64,000 nt of DNA from Haloarcula halobia (GTDB lineage: Archaea > Halobacteriota > Halobacteria > Halobacteriales > Haloarculaceae): contig NZ_CP119787.1 of assembly GCF_029338255.1 (NCBI RefSeq), forward strand, positions 1,550,001-1,614,000. Direction: 5' to 3'. The first letter of the stretch is position 1; every line of letters starts with the position of its first letter. A program made the translations under genes and the position numbers. This document shows, in pieces, positions 16,027 through 17,291 of this stretch. Below the pieces are notes generated by a model, which worked only from the letters and a program-made list of their open reading frames with translations, was not told the origin of the DNA and searched no databases.

Positions 16027-16106
16027 CGTCAGAACGGAGGGAGGGCGCGGGCAAATGGCTTGTGACCGGCCCCGTGGTATTTGTTCACAGAACCCCTACG
16101 ACGGAT

Positions 16107-17291
16107 ATGGACTTCACGCTCCCCGACGAACACCGGATGATACGGGATTCGGTCCGCGAGTTCTGCGAGCAGGAGATCGCGCCTATCGCCCAGGACATCG
16201 AGGACGACCACCGGTTTCCGGCGGAGATATTCGACCAACTGGCCGACCTGGACGTGATGGGCGTCCCCATCGACGAGGAGTGGGGCGGCCTGGGGAGCGA
16301 CACGTTGACCTACGCGCTGGTCGCCGAGGAACTGGGTCGGGTCTCGGGGAGCGTCGGCCTCTCGTACGTCGCGCACACGTCGCTGGGGTCGAAACCCATC
16401 GAACAGTTCGGGACCGACGCGCAACGCGACCGGTGGCTCCGCCCGCTGGCGACGGGCGAGTACCTCGGCGCGTGGGCGCTGACCGAACCCGGGAGCGGGA
16501 GCGACGCCAGCGACATGGACACACGCGCCGTGCGGGACGGCGACGAGTACGTCATCGACGGCACCAAGCAGTTCATCACCAACGCCTCCATCGCGGGGTC
16601 GGTGCTGGTGAAGGCCGTCACCGACCCGGACGCGGGGTACGACGGGGTCTCGACGTTCGTCGTCTCGCCGGACGACGAGGGCTGGGCGGTCACCACCGAG
16701 TGGGAGAAGATGGGGCTGAACGCCTCGCCGACCTGCGAGCTGCAGTTCACGGACTGCCGGATCCCCGCCGACCGACTGCTGGGCGAGGAAGGCGAGGGCT
16801 GGGACCAGACCCTCACGACGCTCAACGGGGGGCGCATCTCCATCGCCGCGCTCTCGGTTGGCCTGGCACAGGGCGCGTTCGAGGCCGCCCGCGAGTACGC
16901 CACGGAACGCGAGCAGTTCGACCGCCCCATCTCGAAGTTCGACGCCGTCCGCGACAAGCTCGTCGAGATGGACCGCAAGATCGAACGCGCACGCCTGCTC
17001 ACACACAAGGCCGCGACGATGTACGACGCGGGTGAGGATAGCGCTGGGCCGAAGGGCCAGCGAGGCGGCGGCGAAGCCGCCAGCCTCACACGCATGTCCT
17101 CGCTGGCGAAGCTCGACGCCAGCGAGATTTGCCGGGAGGTCGCCGAGGAGGCCGTCCAGGTGCTCGGGGGCTACGGCTACACCACGGACTTCGCGCCCCA
17201 GCGGTTCTACCGGGACGCGAAACTGATGGAGATCGGCGAGGGAACCAGCGAGATTCAGCGCCTGGTGCTGGGTCGCGAACTCGGCCTGTAG
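16107..17291 (+). CDS. Acyl-CoA dehydrogenase with in-frame insertion
   Basis: 394 residues from the ATG at 16107. Second acyl-CoA dehydrogenase of the window, only moderately like the first. LTEPGSGSDASDMDT and QFITNAS mark the middle domain, VQVLGGYGYTTDFAPQRFYRD the C-terminal domain, and IGEGTSE carries the catalytic Glu. Between the two C-terminal helices, about residues 309-330 (GEDSAGPKGQRGGGEAASL) form an insertion that the first enzyme lacks, coded by two adjacent GAA-loop hairpins. The insertion keeps the frame and sits where a short loop is normal, so the enzyme is probably active. Confidence 0.93.
   Translation: MDFTLPDEHRMIRDSVREFCEQEIAPIAQDIEDDHRFPAEIFDQLADLDVMGVPIDEEWGGLGSDTLTYALVAEELGRVSGSVGLSYVAHTSLGSKPIEQFGTDAQRDRWLRPLATGEYLGAWALTEPGSGSDASDMDTRAVRDGDEYVIDGTKQFITNASIAGSVLVKAVTDPDAGYDGVSTFVVSPDDEGWAVTTEWEKMGLNASPTCELQFTDCRIPADRLLGEEGEGWDQTLTTLNGGRISIAALSVGLAQGAFEAAREYATEREQFDRPISKFDAVRDKLVEMDRKIERARLLTHKAATMYDAGEDSAGPKGQRGGGEAASLTRMSSLAKLDASEICREVAEEAVQVLGGYGYTTDFAPQRFYRDAKLMEIGEGTSEIQRLVLGRELGL
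17043..17087. repeat. Two adjacent GAA-loop hairpins inside the acyl-CoA dehydrogenase gene
   Basis: At 17043-17061 GCTGG and CC pair with GG and CCAGC around a GAA loop, with one G-G mismatch. At 17062-17087 an 11-bp stem (GAGGC plus GGCGGC) closes on a GAA loop with one bulged A. They abut exactly and together encode the Gly/Ala/Ser-rich insertion. Confidence 0.8.

Follow-up and report, generated by a model that had tools for sequence, protein, structure and literature searches.

The 15 extra codons in an acyl-CoA dehydrogenase (ACAD) gene of Haloarcula halobia are most probably a single copy of a DNA element dispersed through haloarchaea, a counterpart of the protein-coding palindromes. 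The gene lies in the window, by which is meant the whole 64-kb stretch of DNA that was analysed, and the features of the site are as follows.

16107..17291, + strand: ACAD host gene (open reading frame; Pfam Acyl-CoA_dh_N, _M and _1; solved relatives).
17040..17084, + strand: in-frame insert, 45 nt = 15 codons, coding SAGPKGQRGGGEAAS, missing from most orthologues.
17042..17062, + strand: hairpin 1, stem 17042-17050 / 17054-17062, loop GAA 17051-17053 (sequence, folds, family structure).
17063..17086, + strand: hairpin 2, stem 17063-17072 / 17076-17086, loop GAA 17073-17075 (sequence, folds, family structure).
17037..17084, + strand: family covariance model match (R2 51.6 bits, R1 59.2 bits).

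Covariance model R1 was built from 14 copies, the ACAD copy included, and R2 from a set of 101 copies with ACAD left out, against circularity. The ACAD start was taken as the ATG at 16107, in a frame open from the GTG at 16062. A sequence-only reading of this DNA had described two abutting hairpins, both GAA-looped, in frame within an acyl-CoA dehydrogenase, and sequence, folds and Pfam matches agreed with it; the stems, given there as 7 bp with a mismatch and 11 bp with a bulged A, do contain the mismatch and the bulge and are 8 and 10 bp long. Hairpin 1 has 8 bp and one G.G mismatch, in a column that is the weak point family-wide (no standard pair in 22/97 distinct copies). Hairpin 2 has 10 bp and one bulged A at 17082, with its last two bases in the host gene, and only its inner 6 bp (here 17067-17072 / 17076-17081) form the family-wide core. 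The 70-nt ACAD segment out-folded 200/200 shuffles, with z scores of -4.6 as RNA and -5.1 as DNA.

By protein alignment, the insert was present in 2/30 aligned orthologues, from this genome and its sister G013 (Halomicroarcula sp. SYNS111), while exactly the 45-base segment was missing from the other 28, which read straight through the site (GED-VTR and similar). In a second orthologue collection 79/80 ACAD genes were without it, the sole carrier being the same sister species. The earlier picture of an insertion was thus right but its size, about 63 bases, was not, since orthologue alignment puts the extra DNA at 45. Between the two sisters 45/45 bases of the insert are identical, and third codon positions outside it differ at 35/335. 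In the sister assembly, ACAD (L022 about 2560) and methionyl-tRNA synthetase (MetRS; L053) are each frameshifted, probably through sequencing errors. An AlphaFold model of ACAD (30 sequences; mean pLDDT 77.6) showed the inserted residues 307-320 as a loop that joins two helices and has pLDDT <50, as seen in this one model.

BLAST of the own genome with the ACAD insert gave weak partial matches only, and a search of 32 genomes of the genus yielded a single match of 76%, which lies within MetRS of the sister genome (L053). This copy has the ACAD layout with different stem letters, and it was through it that the family first became visible. At one MetRS loop the element was present in 4/30 congener loci and absent from 26/30. 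A near-exact search with hairpin 1 led to topoisomerase I (TopA), occupied at one point in 8/30 congeners and empty in 22/30, and to a peptidase; the TopA copy in G006 has a decayed second hairpin. Presence/absence spans were 45-48 nt at the three sites (ACAD, MetRS, TopA). Inspection of these sites by eye showed no target-site duplication of the kind that goes with the terminal inverted repeats of a MITE, the exact ends being uncertain by a codon. In the own genome, R1 found copies in MetRS, ACAD, isoleucyl-tRNA synthetase (IleRS; two copies) and one more gene. The MetRS, IleRS and TopA genes are what we take them to be from recognition of their sequences. R2, run over a 400-kb sample of the own genome, detected another in-frame tandem hairpin (L426:9629-9682, 35.3 bits; G000:C1 about 649629-649682, minus strand) with a longer second stem, DSVGSKTPRADGTGGSVD. 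No general excess of GAA triloop hairpins was seen in 464 kb of this genome.

These copies bear on the idea that the ACAD palindrome arose by local duplication or by chance in this gene alone. Just 3′ of the insert, a native 10-bp hairpin at 17099-17126, formed by conserved SLAKLDASE codons, has words in common with it, and such an origin would also fit the weak matches of the first BLAST. However, R2, built without the ACAD copy, scored the insert at 51.6 bits, against 20.5 for the runner-up in the window, and the layout recurs in more than 30 genes. We rule this origin out on the MetRS, TopA and other copies and on the R2 score, leaving it virtually no probability, and we take the word-sharing to be coincidence. 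The sequence-only reading had named conservation in all distant orthologues, or a lack of other copies, as outcomes that would speak against a mobile element. The insert occurs in 2/30 and 1/80 orthologues and the same layout, with different stems, in many other genes; this patchiness and these copies support a small palindromic element that lodges inside proteins and is presumably mobile.

The set of 101 copies represents 100 loci (the top 20 of an order-wide search plus 80 others from its list; L244-L253 and ACAD were excluded) and scored at least 57.8 bits, except one at 38.3. In the element, which is 45-51 nt long, a 9-bp hairpin closed by a GNA loop is joined through a short linker to a 6-bp hairpin whose loop is GAA. 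Copies were 51 nt (99) or 48 nt (2) long, all 101 lengths being divisible by three. Conservation drops sharply at the element ends; on the 5′ side, GA-rich codons are the exception. Standard pairs filled 97.3% of the pair cells, a fraction that is biased upward because the model that selected the copies favours pairing; the presence/absence evidence is independent of the model. Both sides changed in 11/15 pairs, and two-sided compensated cells numbered 200 (62 in shuffles), with 9 one-sided cells of the G-U type. Near-perfect pairing, drifting letters and few G-U steps together point to a process at the level of DNA. A strong RNA fold and covariation are also what would be seen if the hairpins acted in mRNA and were selected for stability or translation control. 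However, the 9 one-sided against 200 two-sided cells fit a DNA constraint or hairpin-templated correction better, the copies sit inside many unrelated coding regions, and Rfam held no match to the element, all of which makes an RNA element very unlikely.

Comparison of flanks grouped the copies into 34 clusters, 33 of genes and one intergenic site; two clusters merge different sites, and MetRS accounts for two clusters and two sites, as read from the flanks. Pfam domains were matched in 20/21 proteins scanned, ACAD among them, and 1/21 had no match. Pfam matches in the others included:

AAA/superfamily 1 helicase, CbiC, tetrapyrrole methylase, glutaredoxin + pyridine nucleotide-disulphide oxidoreductase, and NIR_SIR.
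AMP-binding, SufB/D, glycine cleavage P, GXGXG, aconitase C-terminal, CobN, and urocanase.
GAPDH C-terminal, NAD kinase, aminotransferase, CTP-dependent riboflavin kinase, and lumazine binding.
Oligo_HPY and topoisomerase zinc ribbon.

Genes hold 100/101 copies, in one common frame. With the GC-poorest class as the second codon position, this frame was recovered on both sides in 91/101 copies, and in 94/101 when the sides were pooled. Six of the 7 exceptions are CbiC copies directly after the start codon, so that only their 3′ side is host gene; that side fits the frame. The remaining copy, L225, is intergenic, flanked by the ends of a convergent pair of open frames, and at 79.5 bits scored second best of all. 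A near-consensus copy outside genes argues for a DNA element, and the restriction of the others to genes and a single frame argues for selection against the other frames. A well-formed 52-nt tandem hairpin at L353 (G183:C1:1409668-1409719), with no coding periodicity around it, is possibly a second non-coding copy. Two tandem triloop hairpins of the own genome, at L428:19637-19686 and L426:10286-10330, have no clear coding signature and are possibly intergenic relatives or terminators.

In all genes the coded peptide is acidic and Gly-rich (consensus about [DE]SVAPEEQRxGGGEAA[EG]), as would also be the case if acidic flexible loops had been selected on the protein as a halophilic adaptation and the hairpins came from codon choice. 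There is a precedent in the CysRS of Halobacterium, in which, according to the accessible text of the report, a 19-residue insertion is believed to aid the enzyme in salt (PMC3940603). However, the paired bases change together in DNA, the same sites are empty in close relatives, and one near-consensus copy is intergenic. The CysRS insertion was also examined as a fossil copy: at 30 CysRS loci (of 56 genomes with a match) nothing rose above background and 0/30 gave a convincing match (best 16.6 bits). Adaptation of the peptide as the origin of the inserts is therefore quite unlikely.

Across 392 Halobacteriales genomes, R1 matched about 207 at E<=1e-6 (hand count) and 328 at E<=0.01, background included. 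In a control sample of the same phylum, comprising 311 genomes outside the order, the counts were 0 at E<=1e-6 and 22 at E<=0.01 (hand split), and the best E value was 2.4e-5, versus 5e-18 inside the order. R1 E values are too optimistic in GC-rich DNA (55 matches at E<=1 in the 64-kb window, where background reaches about 20 bits). Copy numbers per genome are lower bounds because only 15 candidates in each were scored, and weaker matches of three genomes (E > about 1e-4), which look like chance, were excluded from counts. A loose hairpin pattern matched every genome and was uninformative. Exact pattern matches numbered 0 in viral contigs, and phage records gave none; plasmid records gave one match, in a gene annotated in Halorientalis sp. 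IM1011 as a biotin carboxylase subunit, the gene's name resting on this annotation and on sequence recognition.

The history of the sites was followed on a tree of 31 species built from the three genes (ACAD, MetRS, TopA) without the insert, on which gain and loss are indistinguishable; the occupied state changed at least once at ACAD, at least 3 times at MetRS and at least 4 times at TopA. A single clade of occupied species was rejected for TopA (p-AU 1e-41) and for MetRS (p-AU 0.004). In the 101-copy set, with family labels assigned by hand, similarity was 0.75 between copies within one genome versus 0.76 across families (permutation p 0.74), and copies at one host site in different families were more alike (0.81) than in other comparisons. 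A recent burst within a genome is not indicated, because copies of the same genome resemble one another no more closely than copies across families do. From these comparisons, insertion at many sites may go back a long way, with the copies inherited or transferred along with the host gene. The ACAD copy, which is confined to two sisters, is the best candidate for a recent gain.

As to how the element moves, size and two-hairpin layout would fit a terminal-only IS605-type remnant, with left and right end hairpins fused, that is moved in trans by a Y1 transposase. The PATEs of Haloquadratum offer a model: in the accessible text of PMC3119063, they are described as having near-terminal palindromes related to IS605 ends, with one 52-bp terminal-only form, and such core-deleted versions seem mobile. 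However, at 30 Y1 transposase loci of the genus the best model match had an E value of 0.036, which is background, and this search brought out no mobilising enzyme; we consider a remnant of this type unlikely. PATEs and the SMRs of Haloquadratum are, as described there, haloarchaeal, short and transposase-free like our element, and PATEs bear palindromes. Whereas PATEs have their link to transposons of the IS605 type and SMR-As favour other mobile elements as targets, our element occupies conserved enzymes in frame, and no connection to Y1 was seen at the 30 loci. Membership in the PATEs was rejected on the lack of any match above background at the 30 Y1 loci, a comparison in which PATEs were taken by description and TnpB-only loci were excluded.

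The preferred reading remains a dispersed element that codes in the host frame. It would arrive at many genomic places and be retained almost only where one frame gives an acidic, Gly-rich peptide, inside host-protein loops that tolerate this harmless addition. Alleles with and without it would then persist, disappear or pass from one species to another together with the host gene. Such an element would be selfish and its coded loops mostly neutral, while a DNA-level process or selection would keep the stems paired, either through a mobilising enzyme that selects the hairpin or through hairpin-templated correction.

Coding palindromes have been described before. Those of Rickettsia and Wolbachia (RPE) are in-frame palindromes in unrelated conserved genes, according to the accessible text of two reports (PMC3767692, PMC2229807). 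Our element likewise lies in frame in unrelated genes, with hairpin DNA conserved and the site empty in some orthologues. The RPE are stem-loops of 100-150 bp in alphaproteobacteria (Rickettsiales), whereas ours are double hairpins of 45-51 nt with sequence-diverse, compensated stems in an archaeal order; the two are set apart by length and host group, not by sequence comparison, and membership in the RPE proper was rejected because neither the length nor Halobacteriales as hosts fits. To our knowledge, no transposase is known for the RPE. In Methanocaldococcus jannaschii, archaeal palindromic repeats fused into protein genes were reported by Suyama 2005, as cited in PMC2996958 and PMC2229807; these belong to one methanogen and are compared here by their description as cited. 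The earlier suggestion that such an element was undescribed here holds for haloarchaea, for which no coding palindrome was described in the literature searched (most subscription papers lay outside its reach), but not for archaea as a whole, given the cited M. jannaschii repeats.

PARCELs, in the available text of PMC2996958, are palindromic DNA coding a repeated peptide and thought mobile, and their authors found none in the archaeal genomes then available. They differ in forming tandem arrays of 25 residues in open reading frames without assigned function. REP elements are, like ours, short palindromes repeated in a genome, but by definition, as given in the available text of PMC12306157, they seldom overlap coding regions. 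With only 1/101 copies intergenic, membership in this mainly extragenic class was rejected. On the comparisons made here, the haloarchaeal element is best explained as a counterpart of the palindromes in Rickettsia, Wolbachia and Methanocaldococcus.

Y1 transposases (TnpA) at L408:1795-1860, L409 and L410 (G029, G003 and G028) carry about 17 extra residues of the SGGTEGPADLAEQGSAQ type, coded in L408 by another tandem hairpin; L416 is without them. The TnpB gene of L408 also contains tandem GAA-loop hairpins, and a second family of coding palindromes is likely.

Coding palindromes were previously known mainly from Rickettsia and Wolbachia, and their occurrence across salt-loving archaea suggests that DNA parasites inside protein genes are not peculiar to intracellular bacteria. 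How such elements move and whether they shape proteins are questions that have stood since the Rickettsia reports. Both are testable here because close relatives include several pairs of empty and occupied sites, in a free-living order with genetic tools (Haloferax, Haloarcula). Annotators also gain an explanation for unusual acidic inserts in enzymes of haloarchaea. A broader reading, which we regard as possible though somewhat doubtful, is that Halobacteriales are infested by more than one family of selfish coding palindromes, their stems remaining paired as the letters drift, possibly through mismatch repair for which the hairpin serves as its own template (quasi-palindrome correction). Such elements would repeatedly have added short acidic loops to core enzymes (aminoacyl-tRNA synthetases, topoisomerases, biotin carboxylase, cobalamin enzymes), so that certain loops now interpreted as salt adaptation may be relics of DNA parasites.
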